Assembly (NCBI GenBank): GCA_000565255.1
Contig: ASRH01000009.1
Coordinates: forward strand, 1-34,084
Reading direction: 5' to 3'
From: Candidatus Aramenus sulfurataquae
Lineage (GTDB): Archaea; Thermoproteota; Thermoprotei_A; Sulfolobales; Sulfolobaceae
DNA length: 34,084 nt
The translations under genes were made by a program, and so were the position numbers. The notes beneath the pieces were generated by a model, which worked only from the letters and a program-made list of their open reading frames with translations, ran no database searches and was not told the DNA's origin. This document shows, piece by piece, positions 8,687-18,417 of this stretch; positions within the stretch are counted from its first letter, which is position 1; every line of letters begins with the position of its first letter.

Positions 8687-9160
8687 TTACTTTGCCTTCT
8701 TTATCTTCCACCCGTATTCCTTAAGCAAAACATCTTCTCCGTAACCGACCCATTTGTAGTACTTAACTACCCTCCCACCGGCTTCCCTCTCTATCCACCT
8801 CTGAAGCGCGAACTCCTGGACGTTAGAGAGAGGCCACGCCATAACGAACGCCATCGTGGAGCTAATCCACGGAAGTGGCGGAAGGAACGCTGAGAGAACC
8901 ATAGGTCCCACTATGACAAGGAGGACAACCGTCAGAGCCCTGTTTGCCTCTGCCTTGTTTTTCCTGAACTTTGGCTCGTAGCTCAGCACTCCCTTACTCT
9001 CGAGTTCCTTGAGGTTTTTAATCATCTTCCACTCTCGAAAGAGGAGCATAAAGAAGGACAAAGGAACTATTAACAAAAACCCAAGCACATAAGTGTATAA
9101 GGAGACCAAGAAGCCCAAGGACACGAATACTGCCGAGAGGATAACCTCTTTGGGACTCAC
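8687..9160 (-). CDS. Small membrane protein downstream of dppF
   Basis: This protein of about 157 residues has two hydrophobic blocks: about 40 residues near the N-terminus (two helices, VILSAVFVSLGF to LLIVPLSFFML) and another near the middle (ALTVVLLVIVGPMVL, then a Pro-rich PPLPW turn and a further helix). A basic cytoplasmic loop separates them and the tail is Lys-rich. The preferred start is the GTG at 9160, 13 bases after the dppF stop, with GAGG just after that stop as ribosome binding site. A GTG at 9214 or ATG at 9205 would extend it inside dppF. Being the last gene of the dpp operon, it may accompany the transporter, but the family is not recognised. Confidence 0.6.
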   Translation of the reverse strand: MSPKEVILSAVFVSLGFLVSLYTYVLGFLLIVPLSFFMLLFREWKMIKNLKELESKGVLSYEPKFRKNKAEANRALTVVLLVIVGPMVLSAFLPPLPWISSTMAFVMAWPLSNVQEFALQRWIEREAGGRVVKYYKWVGYGEDVLLKEYGWKIKKAK

Positions 9161-9173
9161 CAGCGATCTTTCC

Positions 9174-10115
9174 TCAGTATAGGAAACATGCGACGTAGTG
9201 GTCATTAGATTCACCGGTTAGCTCTGGCTCCTTTTCCTTGCAGACGTTCATGGCGAAGGGACACCTAGGATAGTACCTGCAACCCTTGCCGTTATACGGT
9301 TCCACCTCTTCCCTTACCTCTGTAGAGAACAGCGTGCTCCTCCCAGATGGGTCAGGCAAGGGCACTGCAGATATTAGCGCCTTGGTGTAAGGATGTAATG
9401 GGTGGTCAAGGACTTCGTCTGTGGGTCCGCTCTCTATTACCTTCCCTTGGTACATTACGTATATGTTGCTTGCAATATAGCCTATTGTGGAGATGTCGTG
9501 GGTAATCATCAAGACGCTTTTTCCCTTCTCCTCTTTCAACTTCTGGAAAATATCGAGAATCCCAGCCCTAATTGACATGTCCAACATGGAGACCGGTTCG
9601 TCAGCTACTATAAAGCTTGGGTCTAGAACAAGCGCCCTGGCAATTGCCACCCTCTGCAGTTGCCCACCGGAGAGCTGGTTTGGTAGGGAGTTAGCGTACT
9701 CCTCCTCTGGCGTGAGTCCCACTTCCCTTAAGGCGTTCATTACCATCTCCCTTTCTTCCTTTTCGTTCTTTGCCAGTTTATGCACCCTTATGCCCTCAGC
9801 AATTATGTCGTATACCTTCATCCTTATGTCCACTGCCTCATATGGGTTCTGGAATATTATTTGGTTCTGCCTTCTGAACTCCTTCTCCTCTTTTCCCTTT
9901 AGCTTTGAAACGTCTTTCCCGTTCCACAGCACCTTTCCTGCAGTGGGCCTCTGCAGGTTCAAAATAGTCCTCCCAAGCGTAGTTTTCCCGCTGCCAGATT
10001 CGCCCACTAACCCGACTATCTCCTTCTCTTTGATCTTAATGTTGACCCCGTCTACTGCCTTAACTACCACGTCCCTTGACTTGAAGTAAACCTTGAGGTT
10101 CTGCGTCTCTATCAT
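9174..10115 (-). CDS. dppF: Dipeptide/oligopeptide ABC transporter ATPase, DppF/OppF type
   Basis: This 313-residue cytoplasmic nucleotide-binding subunit pairs with DppD. Walker A is GESGSGKTT (about residues 38-46), the ABC signature is LSGGQLQR, Walker B with the catalytic Glu is [12 protein letters not shown], and the switch His is in MITHD. The C-terminus carries the oligopeptide-transporter extension with four cysteines in [14 protein letters not shown]...VACF. In related peptide-transporter ATPases this motif can bind a [4Fe-4S] cluster. The ATG overlaps the dppD stop (ATGA). Substrate class is inferred from family; Sulfolobales Dpp/Opp-type transporters may also move oligosaccharides. 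Confidence 0.9.
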
Positions 10116-11098
10116 TTCCTGCTCACCGCGTGACAGGCTACGTAATGGAACCCCTCTACCTTTGTCAGCTCAGGTTCCTTCTCTCTGCAGATGGGCATGG
10201 CTATTGGGCACCTAGGGGCAAACCTACAGCCTTTCGGTGGGTTCTCTAGGTCCGGAGGATAGCCAGGAACTGAGACGAGCTTCTTCTTTTTCCTCAACCT
10301 CAAGTCTGGAATGGCGTCAATCAAGGCCCTTGTGTAGGGGTGGAGTGGGTTCCTGAAGATCTTTTCCACGTCCCCAAACTCCACTACTTTTCCCGCGTAC
10401 ATAATGAGAACGCTGTCGCTTATGTTAGCTAAGAGCGCTAGGTCATGAGTTACGAACATCATGCTAAACTTCCTACTCTCCTGGAGGTCCTTCATCATCT
10501 TCAGTATCTTAGCTTGGGTTATGACGTCGAGGGCAGTGGTGGCCTCGTCCGAGACAACCATGGACGGGTTCAACAGCAGAGCCATCGCAATCACTACCCT
10601 CTGCCTTTGTCCCCCGGAGAGTTCGTGGGGAAACATGTCTGCTTTTTCCGGAGGCACGCCGACGCTCTCCAGCGCCTTATATATTCTCTCCATGGCCTCT
10701 GCCTTTGAGACGTCCTCGTGCTCCATTATAGTTTCCATCATCTGGTCCTTTACCTTGTACACAGGGTCAAGTACGTCCATGGAAGCTTGGGGTATGTAGG
10801 CTATGTCCTTCCAGACAATGGTCTTCCTAAAGGTCTTAAGATCCATGGAAAGTATGTCCTGTCCCTTGAATTTTACTTCTCCAGATACTACTTGCGCGTT
10901 CCTCGGAAGCACCCTAAATATTGTAGAGACCAGCGTTGACTTACCGCATCCGGACTCCCCTGCTACCCCGAGAACCTTTGCTCTGTCCACGAAGAGAGAT
11001 ACGTCGTCCACAGCTTTGACACTTCCTCTCTTGGTCTTATAGTACGTCCTAAGGGAGTCCACCTTTAGGATTACGTCCGTGGATTCCTCAAAAATCAC
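10112..11098 (-). CDS. dppD: Dipeptide/oligopeptide ABC transporter ATPase, DppD/OppD type
   Basis: This 328-residue partner of DppF forms the heterodimeric motor of the importer. It shows Walker A GESGCGKST, a Q-loop in IAYIPQASMDVLDP, signature LSGGQRQRV, Walker B MVVSDEATTALDV and the switch His in FVTHDLALLA. The C-terminal oligopeptide-transporter extension again has four Cys in CRFAPRCPIAMPIC...VACH. The start is a GTG at 11098, one base after the dppC stop, and the 3' end overlaps dppF by four bases, so translation is coupled. All family motifs are intact. Confidence 0.9.
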   Translation of the reverse strand: MIFEESTDVILKVDSLRTYYKTKRGSVKAVDDVSLFVDRAKVLGVAGESGCGKSTLVSTIFRVLPRNAQVVSGEVKFKGQDILSMDLKTFRKTIVWKDIAYIPQASMDVLDPVYKVKDQMMETIMEHEDVSKAEAMERIYKALESVGVPPEKADMFPHELSGGQRQRVVIAMALLLNPSMVVSDEATTALDVITQAKILKMMKDLQESRKFSMMFVTHDLALLANISDSVLIMYAGKVVEFGDVEKIFRNPLHPYTRALIDAIPDLRLRKKKKLVSVPGYPPDLENPPKGCRFAPRCPIAMPICREKEPELTKVEGFHYVACHAVSRK

Positions 11099-11099
11099 G

Positions 11100-12527
11100 T
11101 TACTCGCCCCTCAACTTGTAAGGACTTAGCACGTCGAGCATGGCAGAGCCGAAGAAGTAAAACGCCGTGCTTAGCAGGACTATTCCTATCCCAGGCGGAA
11201 GTACCCACCACCACGCGAAACCGTTAATAAAGGACACGTTATACGTGGCAAAGCCCAACATGTTTCCCCACGTGGGAAATCCCGTTATTCCCAATCCCAG
11301 GAAGTCTAGGCCAGACTCCGCTAAAATTACTCCAGGAACGTCGTAGGCCAACTGGGCGAAGAGTATGCCCATCAAGTTAGGAAGGATATGCCTAAACAAT
11401 ATCCTCAAGTTTCCCTCTCCTAGGGCCTTCGCGGCCTCCACGAAAGTCCTGCCCTTTAAAGAGAGCGTCTGTCCCCTTATAATCTTGGCTGTGCCGGGCC
11501 ACGATAGCAAGGATATTATTAGTAGTATAAGTATGGGCTTATTCACGTTAACTATGGTCCCAGTTACGTCAAATATGCTTATTAACACAACGAGCAATGG
11601 AAGCCCAGGTATCAAGAGGAAGAAGTCAGTCAGAGCGTTTAGGGAAAGGTCAGTAAACCCTCCAACGTAACCTGCCAGCAAGCCTATGAATAGGCCTATT
11701 CCTATTATTAATGCTGATGCCAGGAGAGATAGGTATAAGTCAAACCTAGCTCCATAGACGAACTCCGCAAATACGCTAGCCCCGTTGTCGTCCGTGCCTA
11801 GCTTACCGTATACGTATCCCAAGGAACTATAGGAAGGCAGCGACATGACGAATACTTCCTTAGAGCTTCCAGTGTTCTCAAAGGAAACCGTGACGTTGTA
11901 GGTTCCAGGCTTTGGAAGCGCGTAAGATGGAAACTCGTAGGCAGCTAGAGGTTGTTCAGATAGTGGTAGCTCAGAGGCAAAGGGGGAGTTTGCTGGAGAT
12001 ATATACTTTGAGTCAAATACCACGCTGTTTACCTTGCCGGGGGATATTGAAACTGCTGGCTCCACGGGGAAGGGCACAGGGCAAAGTTCCATTGCATACA
12101 AGCCGTTGAAGTATAAGTTTACGACAAAGCTGGTTGTGCTAGGCGTTAAGAGCTTAAACGATACAACCACGTCGTACGGGTGGCTCCAGTTCCACTTAAA
12201 AGGAAACGATACGTTAACGGTTTGCCCTGGTGGAACTACCACCTTAATATAGGACGCGTTTACCGCCGTTACGTAAGAGCTATCAGAGGAGACGTACTTC
12301 GTAAAGGTGAATGACACATCTGGAGGAAGTTCCTTGTACTGTGGAAAAATCGTTGCCCAAGAAGGGACGGCGTATGGGGCTGCCACATACTGTTGGGAGG
12401 GCAAATAGGGGTTACTATAAGTGGTCAGCGCTGGAGCGGCTACTGCTAAAATTGAGAAAAACCCAATTATTATGATCGAGAATATGAAGGACTTCCTCGA
12501 TAGCAGGTCCTTAATGACTTTATTCAT
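11100..12527 (-). CDS. dppC: ABC transporter permease DppC with extra extracytoplasmic domain
   Basis: This membrane subunit forms the channel with DppB. At 475 residues it is much longer than ordinary DppC/OppC (about 280-320). After TM1 (about 15-33) comes a stretch of some 180-200 residues, rich in Ser, Thr, Val, Pro and Asn with several N-x-S/T sites and alternating beta-like patterns. The normal family sequence then resumes at KLGTDDNGASVFAEFVYGARFDL near residue 240. The EAA loop that docks the ATPases is visible (EAAKALGEGNLRILFRHILPN). The start overlaps dppB by four bases (ATGA). The inserted segment should face outside, where it could contact the binding protein or substrate; that role is inference. 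Confidence 0.88.
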   Translation of the reverse strand: MNKVIKDLLSRKSFIFSIIIIGFFSILAVAAPALTTYSNPYLPSQQYVAAPYAVPSWATIFPQYKELPPDVSFTFTKYVSSDSSYVTAVNASYIKVVVPPGQTVNVSFPFKWNWSHPYDVVVSFKLLTPSTTSFVVNLYFNGLYAMELCPVPFPVEPAVSISPGKVNSVVFDSKYISPANSPFASELPLSEQPLAAYEFPSYALPKPGTYNVTVSFENTGSSKEVFVMSLPSYSSLGYVYGKLGTDDNGASVFAEFVYGARFDLYLSLLASALIIGIGLFIGLLAGYVGGFTDLSLNALTDFFLLIPGLPLLVVLISIFDVTGTIVNVNKPILILLIISLLSWPGTAKIIRGQTLSLKGRTFVEAAKALGEGNLRILFRHILPNLMGILFAQLAYDVPGVILAESGLDFLGLGITGFPTWGNMLGFATYNVSFINGFAWWWVLPPGIGIVLLSTAFYFFGSAMLDVLSPYKLRGE

Positions 12528-13579
12528 TCGTACTTCACCCTAGGATCTATTAGAGGGTATATGAGGTCTAACGCCAGTAGTATAACCACTGCAAACAAGC
12601 TTATAACGTAGAAGTCGCCCTCTAGGAGGGGAATGTCTAAGTTCTCTGCGGCGGACACCAAAAGCCTTCCCAACCCGGGGATGTTAAACACGTCCTCAAT
12701 GAACACTACCCCGGCAAATAGGAAGGCAAGGTCTATTCCAACCCTTGTAAACACGGGTATTATAGCGTTCCTCGTCACGTGTTTGTAAAATATCTTTCTG
12801 TCGCTGATCCCCCTTGCTCTCAAGTAGTTGACGAAGTTGCTACCCATGAGCTCTACACCGTTGTTCCTGAAGAGGATATTCCTGACCCCATAGCTTACTA
12901 CCGTGAGGAATAGGATAGGGAGAGTGAGGAACTTTAACAGGCTAGCCCAGTAAGCGAAACCATGTAACGTCACTCCGTTCCTGGTTATAGCCTCGGCTAT
13001 GTTCGTCGGAAATATGTTTAGGTAGAAACCGAACACGTAAAGTACGATCTCCCCTAGCCAGAAAGATGGAATAAAGTAAGTCATTATCGCCGTAAAGCTC
13101 ACGATGCTGTCTCCTATCTTGCCTTGTCTTGATATAGAGTAGAGGCCCAGCACCACCGCCAGAACGGTGCTCAATAACAGACTGGGGATGACCAGAAGGG
13201 CGGTAACAGGAAACCTCTGCTCTATCAAGTTTAGCACAGGTTCGTCGTAGTGCATCGATATACCTAAGTGAAAGGTCAAAAGGGACTCAATGTAAACGAA
13301 GAACCTCTCCTGTAGAGGTAGGTTTAGCCCGAACTGTCTGTCAATGGCCTGCACGAGCTCGCTCCTGGGAAGACCCTTATAGGAAAGCGGGACGTAAAGC
13401 TCGGCTACGTTTATATGGTAAAGGGTGGGTAAGACTTGAAAGACAAAGAAGTTGAACACGAGGATCCCAAACAACAAGACTAACCTCTCGGCTATTCTCT
13501 TCAATAGGTACCTCTTTAGACCGGTTATGTGGAACCTGCCCCTGATCACGCTTTTCTCAGAGGTAGCCGTAGAGCTCAT
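12524..13579 (-). CDS. dppB: ABC transporter permease DppB
   Basis: This 351-residue first gene of the dppBCDF operon is a six-helix permease. TM1 is at about residues 28-52, followed by the usual external loop (GLNLPLQERFFVYIESLLTFHLGISMHY) and the BPD_transp_1 core. The EAA-like loop (YLRARGISDRKIFYKHVTRNAIIP) contacts the ATPases. A slightly long polar N-terminus (about 25 residues) precedes TM1. The ATG at 13579 lies about 35 bp from the centre of a strong TATA box at 13608-13620, so the leader is only about 8 nt. All family landmarks are present. Confidence 0.9.
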   Translation of the reverse strand: MSSTATSEKSVIRGRFHITGLKRYLLKRIAERLVLLFGILVFNFFVFQVLPTLYHINVAELYVPLSYKGLPRSELVQAIDRQFGLNLPLQERFFVYIESLLTFHLGISMHYDEPVLNLIEQRFPVTALLVIPSLLLSTVLAVVLGLYSISRQGKIGDSIVSFTAIMTYFIPSFWLGEIVLYVFGFYLNIFPTNIAEAITRNGVTLHGFAYWASLLKFLTLPILFLTVVSYGVRNILFRNNGVELMGSNFVNYLRARGISDRKIFYKHVTRNAIIPVFTRVGIDLAFLFAGVVFIEDVFNIPGLGRLLVSAAENLDIPLLEGDFYVISLFAVVILLALDLIYPLIDPRVKYE

Positions 13580-13607
13580 TCCTATTCCTTACAATGTAGT
13601 TCTCGTC

Positions 13608-13620
13608 GTTTTTTAAAAAC
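13608..13620 (-). promoter_or_regulatory. TATA box of the dppBCDF operon
   Basis: Read on the minus strand, GTTTTTAAAAAAC is a near-perfect crenarchaeal TATA box. It predicts transcription starting near 13588, just before the dppB ATG. Confidence 0.55.
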
Positions 13621-13643
13621 TTTGTCATTTAGGTGTTGTGGCT

Positions 13644-13691
13644 ATGTAATGTATTTCAAAACTGAAGGAGATCTTCATATAAACATTACAT
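13644..13691. repeat. Inverted repeat, candidate operator upstream of dppB
   Basis: ATGTAATGT at 13644-13652 is matched by its exact reverse complement ACATTACAT at 13683-13691, centre to centre 39 bp. It lies just upstream of the dppB TATA box in the divergent region between dppBCDF and the plus-strand genes, which is where a regulator of the transporter would bind. The spacing is nearly four helical turns. The sequence is AT-rich, so chance is possible. Confidence 0.3.
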
Positions 13692-13767
13692 TATGATTAC
13701 GTCACATTAAATTGACAAAACATGATATAAAGAAGGAAATAGTATAAATTATCATATAGTAATTTGT

Positions 13768-13798
13768 GGATTTTAAATAAGTAGTTTTTAAATACTTA
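13768..13798 (+). promoter_or_regulatory. Candidate promoter(s) in the divergent dpp intergenic region
   Basis: The gap 13580-13981 (about 400 bp) is very AT-rich up to about 13800, with TATA-like boxes GATTTTAAATAAG (13769-13781) and GTTTTTAAATACTTA (13784-13798) pointing to the plus strand. Either would leave a leader of about 150-170 nt before the ATG at 13982, unusual for Sulfolobales. Bases 13800-13980 show no convincing gene or RNA; they contain short open frames on both strands only. Confidence 0.4.
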
Positions 13799-13981
13799 TT
13801 ATTGAAACTTTTGAGGTTCATCTACCTCCCAGTCTGAGGGGATTTTACTCAGTATTAGGTGATCTAAGCAGTAGAACCACGTAATTAGAACGCTGAGCCT
13901 CAAAGCGACTGTAAGGTAGAAGCACGCTTCGGACAAACAATTAATACCCAACAAACTACTCTTCATGTAAGGTTTATTATA

Positions 13982-15157
13982 ATGCCTAAACCGGGGAGAA
14001 GACAAAGGAAATCGCGTAAACATAAGGAGTACCTTATCGTGGTAGCCCTAATAGTGGTGGCCGTTGCCTTTTATTTATACTACAGTTCAACATCTCTCTT
14101 TAACGTCCCTGTTGTTAAGGCGATGTCCGGCACGTACACGCTGAACGACGTGGTAGAGGTAAACGGGAACGTTGTGGCCTTCGCTGGATCCTCTCAGTCC
14201 AACAACATCTCCTACGGGGTGGCGGGAGAGTTCTTCATTCAGAACTCCTCTTACTCCTTCTTTAACCTAGGGGACTACTTCCAGAATGGGACGATATACT
14301 CGATTGCGTACAACGGTTCGGCTTTCCTCTTAGCCGGGGCCCAGTACATAAGGGAGGGAAACGTAAGCGTCCTTCAGCCTGAAGTAGCACTCTATGCAGA
14401 TGGCAAGGCCATCAACGTCTCGCAATTGATACCTAGCTTCTACACCCCAGGCCAAGCGTACGTGGCAGCGTGGACTGGGAAGTACTGGCTAGTAGGAGGG
14501 AGCGCGCTCGTTATAGAGGGCACAGCCCAATATAACGTGCCTTTCCTAGTAAAGGTATTCCCCAACTTAACCTCCGTTGACCTGACCTCAAGGTTGCCTG
14601 CCTTCTTTTACAGTCCGCTCAGCGTAGGTACAGGGGTATACGCCTTGTCCTCCCAAGGAGGTCAGTTTGCAGTGGGCGGGAGCCATCTTTTCAACTACAC
14701 TTTCGCTGTCTTCAACGGCACGTCTTTTGTGGACTCCTTGGATGGAGTCGGCTTAATTCTGACAGTTGCCAATTCCCCTGATGGCTGGCTAATAGGGGGT
14801 TTCAACTACAGCTCTAAACCAGACGTGACGTTAACATTGTTAGGCATAGTAAACGGAAGCGGCGTACACTTCATTGACTTGAAATACGCTGTAGGAGTTG
14901 TGGTAGCTGTAGGCTACGGCGACGGCGAGTACGTGGTCTCCGTTAGGATACCCTTAATAAATGAGGCGTCTGGAACCGTTTCAGAGGAGGGAATAGTGCT
15001 TATGGGGAAGACTCCTACCTCCCTTTCTGAGGTCTACGCTGGGATTAACGTCAGCGTAAACTCGTTGGCCTTGGCTGGAGACCACGTCGTAGGAGTAGGA
15101 TATAAAGTTAGCAACCAAGTGAGAGAGGGGATCATAATAGTCCTCAGAGTGACGTGA
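13982..15157 (+). CDS. Membrane-anchored seven-repeat (propeller-like) surface protein next to Dpp transporter
   Basis: This 391-residue protein has a very basic cytoplasmic N-terminus (PGRRQRKSRKHK), one membrane anchor at about 17-34 and an external domain to the end with many N-x-S/T sites. Seven weak repeats of the form 'short strand, polar turn with Gly, hydrophobic strand, Gly-Gly/Ala-Gly' are visible at about residues 57-70, 106-120, 160-173, 219-233, 259-273, 307-320 and 359-373. Examples are GSAFLLAGA, GKYWLVGGS, GGQFAVGGS and DGWLIGGF. The spacing of 40-59 residues is what a seven-bladed beta-propeller would give. No enzyme motif was seen. It lies between the divergent permease operon and the binding-protein gene, so a role at the outer face of the transporter is inferred. 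Confidence 0.75.
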   Translation: MPKPGRRQRKSRKHKEYLIVVALIVVAVAFYLYYSSTSLFNVPVVKAMSGTYTLNDVVEVNGNVVAFAGSSQSNNISYGVAGEFFIQNSSYSFFNLGDYFQNGTIYSIAYNGSAFLLAGAQYIREGNVSVLQPEVALYADGKAINVSQLIPSFYTPGQAYVAAWTGKYWLVGGSALVIEGTAQYNVPFLVKVFPNLTSVDLTSRLPAFFYSPLSVGTGVYALSSQGGQFAVGGSHLFNYTFAVFNGTSFVDSLDGVGLILTVANSPDGWLIGGFNYSSKPDVTLTLLGIVNGSGVHFIDLKYAVGVVVAVGYGDGEYVVSVRIPLINEASGTVSEEGIVLMGKTPTSLSEVYAGINVSVNSLALAGDHVVGVGYKVSNQVREGIIIVLRVT

Positions 15158-15189
15158 GGGACCGCAAGGCGCTTACAAAAGAACGACAA

Positions 15190-15225
15190 ACTTCTCCCTT
15201 TAGGGCGGGGAGGAAGTTAGTGTCA
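15190..15225 (+). mobile_element. Solitary IS200/IS605-like (TnpB) right-end hairpin remnant
   Basis: CTTCTCCCTTTAGGGCGGGGAG at about 15191-15212, followed by GAAGTTAGTG, forms a short GC-rich hairpin with a TTTA loop. It matches the look of the right end of TnpB-encoding IS200/IS605 elements. The tail GGAGGAAGT is shared with the copy at about 30049-30056. No tnpB reading frame adjoins it. The rest of the gap 15158-15365 is AT-rich promoter sequence. Confidence 0.4.
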
Positions 15226-15320
15226 ACTAAATATTATGTTGTTAATTATGGTCTAGTTGGAATAGTTTGTTTTAATTCGATTAAAAGAACTTCATCGCAT
15301 GACATTTGACTTATAAAAAA

Positions 15321-15360
15321 AGTTTAAATAGATTACGAAAAGTTGTTATACATAAGTGAT
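15321..15360 (+). promoter_or_regulatory. Promoter and ribosome binding site of the binding-protein gene
   Basis: AGTTTAAATA at 15321-15330 is a good TATA box predicting a start near 15352. GTGAT at 15356-15360 sits five bases before the ATG at 15366 as a Shine-Dalgarno motif, so the leader is about 14 nt. Confidence 0.5.
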
Positions 15361-15365
15361 AAGTA

Positions 15366-17651
15366 ATGAGAAAACTAACCTTAATAATAGGTATTTCACT
15401 AGTTCTAGGATTTCTAGTAGCCATACCAATTCAAACCTCAGGTTTCGCTATAGCTAACTTTAACGCTCCCGTTCTGACCCCATCACAAGTGATATACAAC
15501 GAGCCTTGGGTCGGCACAATCGTCTTCACTTACGCCTACAGCACACACACAGACGAGTTCAACGCCCTCTTGCACGGTAAGGTGGACTTCATTACCCTCA
15601 CACATGTCTCGGAAATCCAAGAACTCGAGAAGGCTAACACCACAGCGTTCCTTGCGATAGCCCCTGCAGAGAGCTTTGGGCAAGTAGCTTTCGCATTTGG
15701 AAACAACTTGACCGCCAACTTGTACTTTAGGTACGCAATAGCGTCCCTCATAAACCCGCAGAACGTGACCTCTTACGTCCTGGATAACGGCGTATTAGGA
15801 GTTGATGAGCCGTTCTTCGTTAACCCGAACCTAGCGGTGTACAAGCAGTGGTTCAACCCACAAGTAGAGTCCTACTACCAGCAGTACGAGTCTTACAACT
15901 TGACGAGGGCAGTTATGTATTTAGAGAAAGTCCCAGGGATAACTCACGTCAATGGCCAGTGGTACTACGACGGGCAACCACTGAAGCTAACCTTCTACTA
16001 CACTTACCCACCAGAGACCCTGCTGAAGTTCGCCAACCTCCTGAAGGCATCCGCAGCAGCGATTAACTTAACCATAGTGCCCGTATCTGAGACTTTTGCC
16101 ACGCTGATAACCCAAGCGACAACTCCTCCGTTCAACGACTTTAACTTGACCACTTTCGGCTGGATAAGCTTAGGGCCTTTCCCCAACTCCTGGATGAACG
16201 GTATATACACTAGTCCAGGCAACACGGGTGGCTTCTCCAACTCCACCATTGACGCCGTATTACAAGAGGCCCTCAGCGCACCTACCCTAGCACAAGAGAT
16301 AAACTATACCAAGGAGGCAGAGCTGTTACTACAACAGCAACTCCCGTACGTAATATTCGTGTGGTCCAACGCAATACAAGCTGTATACTTACCGGGCTGG
16401 GCTGACTACATCTACCTAAGCTCCGGAACTCCCACGTACGCAATAAACATAATGGACGTACACCCAACCAACCAAGCACTTAACGGGACTTTCATATTCT
16501 CCTCTGTATCTAGTGACGAGCCAAGGCACATTAACATATACGCCAGCGTCTCCCTGTACGCCTTCAACACGTTAGACGAGATGTACGACTCCCTGGCAAT
16601 AACCAATTTCGCTAACGAGACCCAGCTACTTCCGTGGGTAGCTTCCTCCTGGACTATAAAGTCCCCAGTGACCATGACCTTGCCTAACGGAGAAGAGATA
16701 GTTAACGGAACTATTCTCACGGTGAACTTAGTCCACAACGACACTTGGATAGACGGCTACCCGCTCACTGCCTACGACGTTAACTTCACAGTGTGGTATT
16801 ACGATATCCCTGGAATGATGGGCACCAACACGTTCGACGGAGTTCACTTGAACTACACATACCTAGCACAGGAGGGATTTATAAACACAGACTTGTTCGG
16901 CACCATCCCAGCTCTAGTGTGGACTAACGTGACAGGGCCGTACCAGATAGTGTTCTACTTGAACTCCTCCTCTTACGTTAACGTCTACGAGACCCTATCC
17001 GAGTACCCGATAATGCCACTCCACGCCATAGGGCCAGTAAACGTAGTAACCTTGTACCATTCCACGCTAGCTCCAGAGATTTCTTCGGGGCCATACAGGT
17101 TTGTCTCATTTAACACTGAGGCGAAGACTGTAACCGTTACATACAACCCATACTACTTCAGGATAAACCCGTTGATCTTCCTGCAGAACGTGACCCAGGG
17201 ACAGACATACACGTTCACTGCTAACTTCACCTACTACACTTGGGACAACGCAACCTCCTCCTTGGTGCCCAACCAGGTGACAAATGGAACTGCTGTTATG
17301 TGGCTCAAGTACCTTAACGTATCTGGCCAAAGTTACGGCAACGCTACGGCTCCTGTGCCCATGAAGATGGTGGCGCCTGGTGTATACCAAGGTACCATTA
17401 ATACCGCAAACTTAGCCCCTGGAGTGTATGAGGTAGTGAGCAAGGTTACGTGGGACAACGGTACTAGGGAGCTCTACTACTACGGATCAATTAACGTCAC
17501 TAAGCCAGTGACAACTACTACTGTTACGACGACAGTTCCAACAACGACCACTAGCACCACTACCACGATCCCAACACTAACTATTGTTGCCGGAGTAATA
17601 ATAGTGATAATAATTGTTGCAGCAGCGGTTGTGGTGTTAAGAAGAAGATAA
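15366..17651 (+). CDS. dppA: Surface-anchored peptide-type substrate-binding protein (SBP_bac_5), apparently circularly permuted
   Basis: This 761-residue external receptor serves the adjacent DppBCDF importer. It has a signal/anchor helix at about 4-22. Residues 45-350 correspond to the usual second half of SBP_bac_5 proteins: TDEFNALLHGKVDFITL, the R-x-A-I block LYFRYAIASLIN near 120, then the C-terminal lobe ending in QQLPYVIFVW. Residues 375-605 correspond to the usual first half: FNTLDEMYDSL, LLPWVASSWTI, HNDTWIDGYPLTAYDVNFTV and SSGPYRFVSFN. A beta-rich domain follows (about 608-711), then a Thr-rich stalk (713-736), a membrane helix (738-758) and an Arg-rich end. Anchoring by stalk plus helix is typical of Sulfolobales binding proteins. 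There are dozens of N-x-S/T sites. Substrate (peptides or sugars) unknown. Confidence 0.85.
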   Translation: MRKLTLIIGISLVLGFLVAIPIQTSGFAIANFNAPVLTPSQVIYNEPWVGTIVFTYAYSTHTDEFNALLHGKVDFITLTHVSEIQELEKANTTAFLAIAPAESFGQVAFAFGNNLTANLYFRYAIASLINPQNVTSYVLDNGVLGVDEPFFVNPNLAVYKQWFNPQVESYYQQYESYNLTRAVMYLEKVPGITHVNGQWYYDGQPLKLTFYYTYPPETLLKFANLLKASAAAINLTIVPVSETFATLITQATTPPFNDFNLTTFGWISLGPFPNSWMNGIYTSPGNTGGFSNSTIDAVLQEALSAPTLAQEINYTKEAELLLQQQLPYVIFVWSNAIQAVYLPGWADYIYLSSGTPTYAINIMDVHPTNQALNGTFIFSSVSSDEPRHINIYASVSLYAFNTLDEMYDSLAITNFANETQLLPWVASSWTIKSPVTMTLPNGEEIVNGTILTVNLVHNDTWIDGYPLTAYDVNFTVWYYDIPGMMGTNTFDGVHLNYTYLAQEGFINTDLFGTIPALVWTNVTGPYQIVFYLNSSSYVNVYETLSEYPIMPLHAIGPVNVVTLYHSTLAPEISSGPYRFVSFNTEAKTVTVTYNPYYFRINPLIFLQNVTQGQTYTFTANFTYYTWDNATSSLVPNQVTNGTAVMWLKYLNVSGQSYGNATAPVPMKMVAPGVYQGTINTANLAPGVYEVVSKVTWDNGTRELYYYGSINVTKPVTTTTVTTTVPTTTTSTTTTIPTLTIVAGVIIVIIIVAAAVVVLRRR

Positions 17652-18009: not shown

Positions 18010-18417
18010 CTAACCTGTTCCTGAATTCACCCTCTCTAATACCTTCTCCGGATCCTTTACGTCCATAATTACTATTACCTTCCCATTCTCCATGACTATG
18101 TACACAGACCCCACTCCTAACCTCTTCGCAATTGGACCTTGGGAAACGAAAGCTTCTCTTAAGTTTGCCAACCTCACCCTTTTCCTGGAGGTAAATGACC
18201 TTATTTCCAGCTCTCCTCCTTCAAAGCAGTACAAGTGGCTGGTCTGCCACCATATTATCAACCCTAGAAGAGCGTACCAGATCAACACGAAAATAGCGTA
18301 GTTCAGCAGTGCCTTTATCTCCAGGAAGAGAGAAAAAACCACTAGGCCTATGGTACCCTCAACCAGTAGCCTTACCCCTGTCGGTCTCGTACAGCCAGCA
18401 GGCGACTTTCCTCCCAT
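18010..18417 (-). CDS. Small two-helix membrane protein with bacterial-PH-like domain
   Basis: Up to 135 residues. Two adjacent membrane helices (IGLVVFSLFLEIKALL and AIFVLIWYALLGLIIWW) are followed by a small beta-rich domain of about 65 residues with the pattern of bPH (DUF304-type) domains: ELEIRSFTSRKRVRLANL, then KRLGVGSVYIVM and IMDVKDPEKVLERV. Such proteins are membrane-associated with unknown biochemical role. The ATG at 18417 would overlap the ABC ATPase remnant by 59 bases and give an odd polar N-terminus. A GTG at 18342, after the remnant's stop, gives a more natural 110-residue protein. The bPH assignment is by pattern only. Confidence 0.6.
   Translation of the reverse strand: MGGKSPAGCTRPTGVRLLVEGTIGLVVFSLFLEIKALLNYAIFVLIWYALLGLIIWWQTSHLYCFEGGELEIRSFTSRKRVRLANLREAFVSQGPIAKRLGVGSVYIVMENGKVIVIMDVKDPEKVLERVNSGTG

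Follow-up and report, generated by a model that had tools for sequence, protein, structure and literature searches.

Organization of the dpp locus

The locus described here raises the question of what a surface protein, encoded in the midst of the genes for an ABC importer, contributes to that importer, if anything at all. The window analyzed is one entire contig of 34,084 bases from a genome of 1.8 Mb, and the features that bear on the question are listed below.

8687..9214, minus strand: small protein of 175 aa that has hydrophobic segments; last in the row of permease genes
9174..10115, minus strand: DppF-type ATPase
10112..11098, minus strand: DppD-type ATPase
11100..12527, minus strand: DppC-type permease; ~200-aa insertion at residues ~39–242, probably extracellular
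12524..13579, minus strand: DppB-type permease
13982..15157, plus strand: membrane-anchored, probably β-propeller protein of 391 aa (anchor residues 14–40, ectodomain about 43–391)
14132..15154, plus strand: seven proposed propeller units (protein residues 51–102, 103–156, 157–211, 212–256, 257–303, 304–353, and 354–391; boundaries approximate and set by the analyst)
15366..17651, plus strand: DppA-type binding protein (SBP_bac_5) of 761 aa, apparently circularly permuted, with hydrophobic segments at residues 1–30 and 730–761

The importer is of the Dpp/Opp type (family 5), comprising an SBP_bac_5 binding protein, two BPD_transp_1 permeases, and two oligo_HPY ATPases, all above the Pfam cut-offs; OppC_N in DppC falls below its own cut-off. 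The binding protein looks circularly permuted, with residues 100–317 matching residues 237–439 of the nickel-binding protein 4ofl, and residues 460–476 and 565–598 matching, both weakly, residues 70–86 and 140–173. DppA matches in other genomes keep the same order over most of their length. The insertion in DppC follows the first membrane segment and probably lies outside the cell, because it carries four glycosylation sequons.

The propeller ORF begins with ATG, spans 13982–15157 as first annotated, and is indeed flanked by the permease operon on one strand and the binding-protein gene on the other. Upstream it has 402 bp of its own. On the other side, a TATA-like element (15310–15340, by eye) directly precedes the start of dppA, and is also present in locus L021; the propeller gene and dppA may therefore be transcribed apart. 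An inverted-repeat-like stretch, also noted by eye, is located between the two genes at 15188–15220. At the far end of the permease row, a BLAST relative of the small protein follows dppF in 14 of the 15 other linked loci. Beyond dppA, the window carries a bPH_2-domain gene (18010–18417); in G002 (locus L020) a second, distant dpp operon adjoins the orthologue of this gene, which is not so in the window.

Anchor and surface location

The N terminus of the 391-residue protein is rich in Lys and Arg and is followed by a single hydrophobic segment at residues 14–40; no further hydrophobic segment was found after it, in agreement with the single N-terminal anchor that had been proposed. The region after residue 40 contains 12 N-glycosylation sequons, as compared with 3.4 expected and a maximum of 9 in 1000 shuffles. 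DppA has 24 sequons, at a density per residue equal to that of the propeller protein, DppD has one, and DppB and DppF have none. From the charged start, the hydrophobic segment, and the excess of sequons, the product is therefore very probably a surface protein held by one N-terminal anchor. The ectodomain contains no cysteine, nor does any other part of the translation.

Internal repeats and predicted fold

The first-pass annotation had described seven weak repeats, 40–59 residues apart, each closing in a GG or AG turn, and had proposed a seven-bladed β-propeller. The repeats were assessed by aligning 19 orthologues and comparing the ectodomain profile with itself, with 100 column shuffles as the control. 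The off-diagonal scores were 69.0 and 60.2, as compared with a maximum of 25.8 in the shuffles, so that the internal repeats exceed chance. The units are all-β, as judged from this self-alignment and from the strands predicted in both AlphaFold2 models described below. When profiles of the units were compared one by one, units 2, 3, and 5 were clearly alike (75–97% probability), unit 4 was moderately similar to unit 2 (46–69%), and units 1, 6, and 7 showed negligible likeness to the others, their assignment being based on position and predicted strands. Thus the repeats themselves and a spacing of ~40–60 residues, as read from the sequence, have held up, but units 1, 6, and 7 are not individually recognized, and the closing turn is not a feature of every repeat: an AG or GG turn ends units 1–5 only, unit 6 has none, and unit 7 ends in GVG. 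Seven is likely the best repeat count, short of proof.

AlphaFold2 produced a whole-protein model (pLDDT 42, pTM 0.40) too poor to be used on its own, and a model of the ectodomain alone that is also of low confidence (pLDDT 48, pTM 0.52); the two were used side by side. Compared with known structures by VIA-align, the ectodomain model matched CylK with a Z score of 19.7 (root mean squared deviation 4.5, 301 of 349 residues aligned), integrin α heads with Z scores of 16.0–17.7, and WD40 proteins with Z scores of about 16–17, all of them over nearly the full length, and 863 of the 983 chains compared reached a Z score of 8. The whole-protein model gave shorter alignments, with Z scores up to 11.3. 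These best matches of the ectodomain model, which we take to be seven-bladed propellers, have Z scores of 15.9–19.7 over 230–309 residues as a group, but share only 7–16% sequence identity with the protein, and no common family profile was found. The predicted ectodomain, low in confidence as it is, is therefore arranged along its length as in known propellers, as the propeller symmetry suggested at the outset would have it, and seven units agree both with the repeat spacing and with the blade numbers of the best matches.

Searches for known families gave little to set beside these structural matches. None of the Pfam propeller models (including Kelch, WD40, NHL, FG-GAP, and PQQ) was among the 12 families listed for the 19 members at E values up to 1, a search in which the HMMER filters discard most weak matches. 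No NCBIfam model matched the window protein at 0.01, and no PDB sequence matched the family profile up to an E value of 10. A profile of a single unit found nothing significant among PDB sequences; its best match (E value of 0.32, not used) was PkwA, presumably a WD40 protein.

On the strength of the predicted models, the ectodomain is very likely a β-propeller, and seven is the probable number of blades. A different all-β repeat fold, or a propeller with another blade number, appears quite improbable. Such an alternative could appeal to the low model confidence, to query TM-scores that do not exceed 0.44 for the ectodomain model in Foldseek, to the range of 5 to 8 blades among the propellers that Foldseek matched, and to the three units that escape recognition by sequence; yet the recognized matches of two separate models are propellers, and the best alignments extend over ~300 of the 349 residues.

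Co-occurrence with one importer subtype

A protein search identified orthologues of the propeller protein in 19 of the 31 genomes of the window's own family, several of which are incomplete (G025, G004, and G021 at 71–87%). When a profile was run against 197 genomes that belong to the order and had been sampled from a larger group, the same 19 were matched, and a search of 398 genomes of the phylum recovered 15 of the 19 and one weak, short match outside the order. This match, in G445 (E value of 1.9e-4), and a second weak place in G007 (E value of 6.1e-4) each cover a short stretch only and were not counted as relatives. Genome contigs scanned with the single propeller protein gave no match; a scan with A2, an alignment of 8 of the 19 sequences, gave one locus, L038 of Metallosphaera javensis AS-7. 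No relative was found on viral contigs in two scans, one with A2 and one with another orthologue as the query. Convincing orthologues were thus found nowhere beyond the window's family in the samples searched.

Within the family, DppA is present at 53–100% identity in exactly the 19 propeller genomes, and DppC is matched over residues 1–475 in those same 19. The propeller gene is absent from all 12 of the other genomes, which are without this DppABCDF subtype. The association with dpp genes that had been put forward from the one locus therefore extends to every family genome with this subtype. Five of the 12 (G003, G004, G014, G015, and G018) have a sister importer subtype. The remaining seven have DppB paralogues at 26–37% identity and no DppA at an E value of 1e-30; the closest of these paralogues (37%, in G017) reaches roughly the similarity of the sister subtype, and the DppC reading frame of that genome is short (322 aa). 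In G027, a propeller genome, DppA is matched a second time, in part and at 37%.

In 16 genomes of the 19, the window included, dppB and dppA flank the propeller gene. In G020 it is about 0.7 Mb from dppB, in G021 the two genes are on different contigs, and in G010 it stands alone on a small contig, with other genes filling the gap between dppB and dppA. This gap (locus L066, ~9079–16655) includes a stretch of X and, among its genes, one that by eye looks ankyrin-like. A DppB tree was built from 18 of the 19 propeller genomes, with the window's own row left out and with a long-branch warning. A branch supported at 94/91, below the star level of the tool, and present in 96% of bootstrap trees separates the propeller genomes from the rest; the sister clade stands beside them (100/100), and the G020/G021 pair, which belongs to one genus, falls inside the propeller clade with modest support (85/85).

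Linkage alone accounts in part for the co-inheritance in the 16 genomes. That genomes keep the gene even where it no longer lies in the locus is the strongest indication of a functional link, although the events are few (one genus, and G010, where the genes are on separate contigs). A figure of 7e-9 for the 19 versus 12 genomes does not allow for kinship or linkage and was not taken as proof, nor was a correlation of 0.92 between propeller and DppA identities. Mean identity among 10 of the 19 genomes is 36% for the propeller protein as compared with 63% for both DppA and DppB; by this sequence measure, the propeller evolves faster than either.

A different anchored protein in the sister clade

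In the sister clade, a different anchored protein of 374–403 aa is encoded directly upstream of dppA, on the same strand, in all four contiguous loci:

L059:12321-13532, sister-clade anchored protein
L060:10922-12112, sister-clade anchored protein
L061:4424-5548, sister-clade anchored protein
L062:13111-14280, sister-clade anchored protein

In G004, the fifth sister genome, a homologue of this protein is found on another contig. By eye, the protein has a coiled-coil stalk and a duplicated small domain; the three of the four that were scanned gave no Pfam family above the cut-off. Homology to the propeller protein was not found (hhalign probability 0.7%), nor was it found between the small operon-end proteins of the window's subtype and those of the sister clade (1.3%, 12 and 5 sequences). 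The outside domain of DppC is common to both subtypes (hhalign 99%), but its two versions share 26% identity, as compared with 48% in the part within the membrane (18 sequences of the propeller type and 5 of the sister type). Each subtype thus seems to add to its binding protein and its DppC outside domain a further surface protein on an anchor, which differs in kind between the two, and the unrelated partner in the sister clade suggests that this type of importer uses such a protein.

Possible roles of the propeller protein

The explanation that best fits these findings is that the product of the propeller ORF is an accessory part, on the outside of the cell, of one subtype of Dpp/Opp-type ABC importer, because the protein is conserved, built of repeats, anchored, rich in sequons, and, in the genomes searched, found only with that subtype. 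The protein would sit beside the transporter on the outer face of the membrane, working with the anchored DppA and the outside domain of DppC, and would either gather substrate and pass it to DppA or position loaded DppA on the permease. Its role would be that of a scaffold or a binding part, not of an enzyme. We consider such a component, aiding DppA in capture or docking, somewhat probable, the capture or docking step itself being inferred; as an association of gene and importer, the additional subunit has good support, and as a mechanism it is a proposal.

Three other roles were weighed. An independent surface propeller, engaged in adhesion or in S-layer or glycan contact and lodged in the dpp locus by chance, would account for the gene's own upstream region and the separate promoter-like element (by eye) of dppA, for the faster evolution relative to the transporter, and for the location of the gene away from dppA in G020, G021, and G010. 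It is nevertheless an unlikely reading, because the match with the importer subtype is exact in both presence and absence, unlinked cases included, and because in the sister clade another kind of anchored protein stands next to dppA.

Many extracellular propellers are glycosidases or lyases, and the Foldseek matches include arabinanases, polysaccharide lyases, and peptidase propellers, from which it could be supposed that the protein trims an oligosaccharide or peptide substrate before uptake. The best-kept charged columns of the alignment might be called on as well, Arg322 being Lys or Arg in 17 of the 19 sequences and Asp200 being Asp in 16 of the 19 and invariant in a closer set of 8. The residues invariant in all 19, however, are Met, Gly, Asn, Pro, Leu, Trp, Tyr, and Phe only; with no charged residue among them an enzymatic role is unlikely. 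Moreover, the S9 peptidase chains matched are 561–649 residues in length, and 391 residues leave no space for a peptidase domain in addition to the propeller. An extracellular enzyme is consequently very improbable. A sensor that reports substrate to the cell is rated as highly improbable: the single anchor and the short charged tail that would be inside are compatible with it, but that tail is strongly variable and is reduced to about two residues in L028 and L029. The accessory component of the importer, should it be borne out, would provide a testable function for a family for which no matching profile was found here, and an importer subtype with a conserved extra surface part would reveal a design for ABC importers without an outer membrane, in archaea that also tether the binding protein to the membrane.

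Substrate and candidate genes in S. acidocaldarius

The genetics of S. acidocaldarius are workable, which makes the question testable. From the gene order in G022, which we take to be S. acidocaldarius DSM 639, the propeller protein would be Saci_1761 and DppA would be Saci_1760. Saci_1762–1765 are called a putative ABC transporter and rise on glycerol (PMC11962113), saci_1762 is called a binding-protein-dependent transporter (PMC12529230), and Saci_1760, the inferred DppA, is described as a membrane protein that is glycosylated and occurs during growth on pentoses (PMC8578740) and raised on nutrient excess (PMC11486757). Saci_1761 was not found in the literature searched; the published passages name Saci_1760 or Saci_1762–1765 and never the gene between, which is not to claim its absence from print. 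Given that glycerol and pentoses are what these inferred genes respond to, the name "dipeptide" is to be read with caution, and, by analogy, the importer may have a substrate other than peptides. The glycan or peptide capture suggested for the propeller in the first-pass annotation is a guess, the reports on the inferred orthologues being concerned with glycerol and pentose conditions, not with peptides.

Comparison with known systems

The Dpp importer of Escherichia coli, DppABCDF, is described as having five subunits (PMC12136057), and the locus resembles it in its two permeases, two ATPases with oligo_HPY tails, and family-5 binding protein. It differs in that the binding protein here appears to be circularly permuted and carries hydrophobic segments at both ends, in that DppC has an insertion of ~200 aa, and in that a propeller-like protein and a small membrane protein join the locus. 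A possible parallel in a related archaeon is OppA of Saccharolobus solfataricus (SSO1273), which is glycosylated, binds oligopeptides for an ABC importer, and has been considered a possible virus receptor (PMC4124505, PMC4456609).

For the propeller itself, a comparison can be made with BtuG of Bacteroides, a lipoprotein lid on a TonB-dependent outer-membrane barrel, BtuB (PMC10404256). BtuG is a surface-anchored seven-bladed propeller that works with an importer, and the protein here, predicted to be a propeller and probably a seven-bladed one, would likewise act with an importer. They differ in that the anchor here is an N-terminal hydrophobic segment and the neighbor is an ABC importer, so that neither the lipoprotein anchor nor the TonB-dependent barrel partner of a BtuG-type lid is present. 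No sequence relationship to BtuG was found. BtuG is not among the top 50 matches of the better, ectodomain model, and 8blw (BtuB1 with BtuG1) is among the matches of the poorer whole-protein model (Z score of 11.2, root mean squared deviation 2.7, 129 residues aligned). By analogy, the propeller could be an obligate extracellular subunit of an ABC importer and an archaeal counterpart of BtuG-like lids, for which the sister clade uses an unrelated anchored protein instead, a proposal that we hold as conceivable but doubtful.
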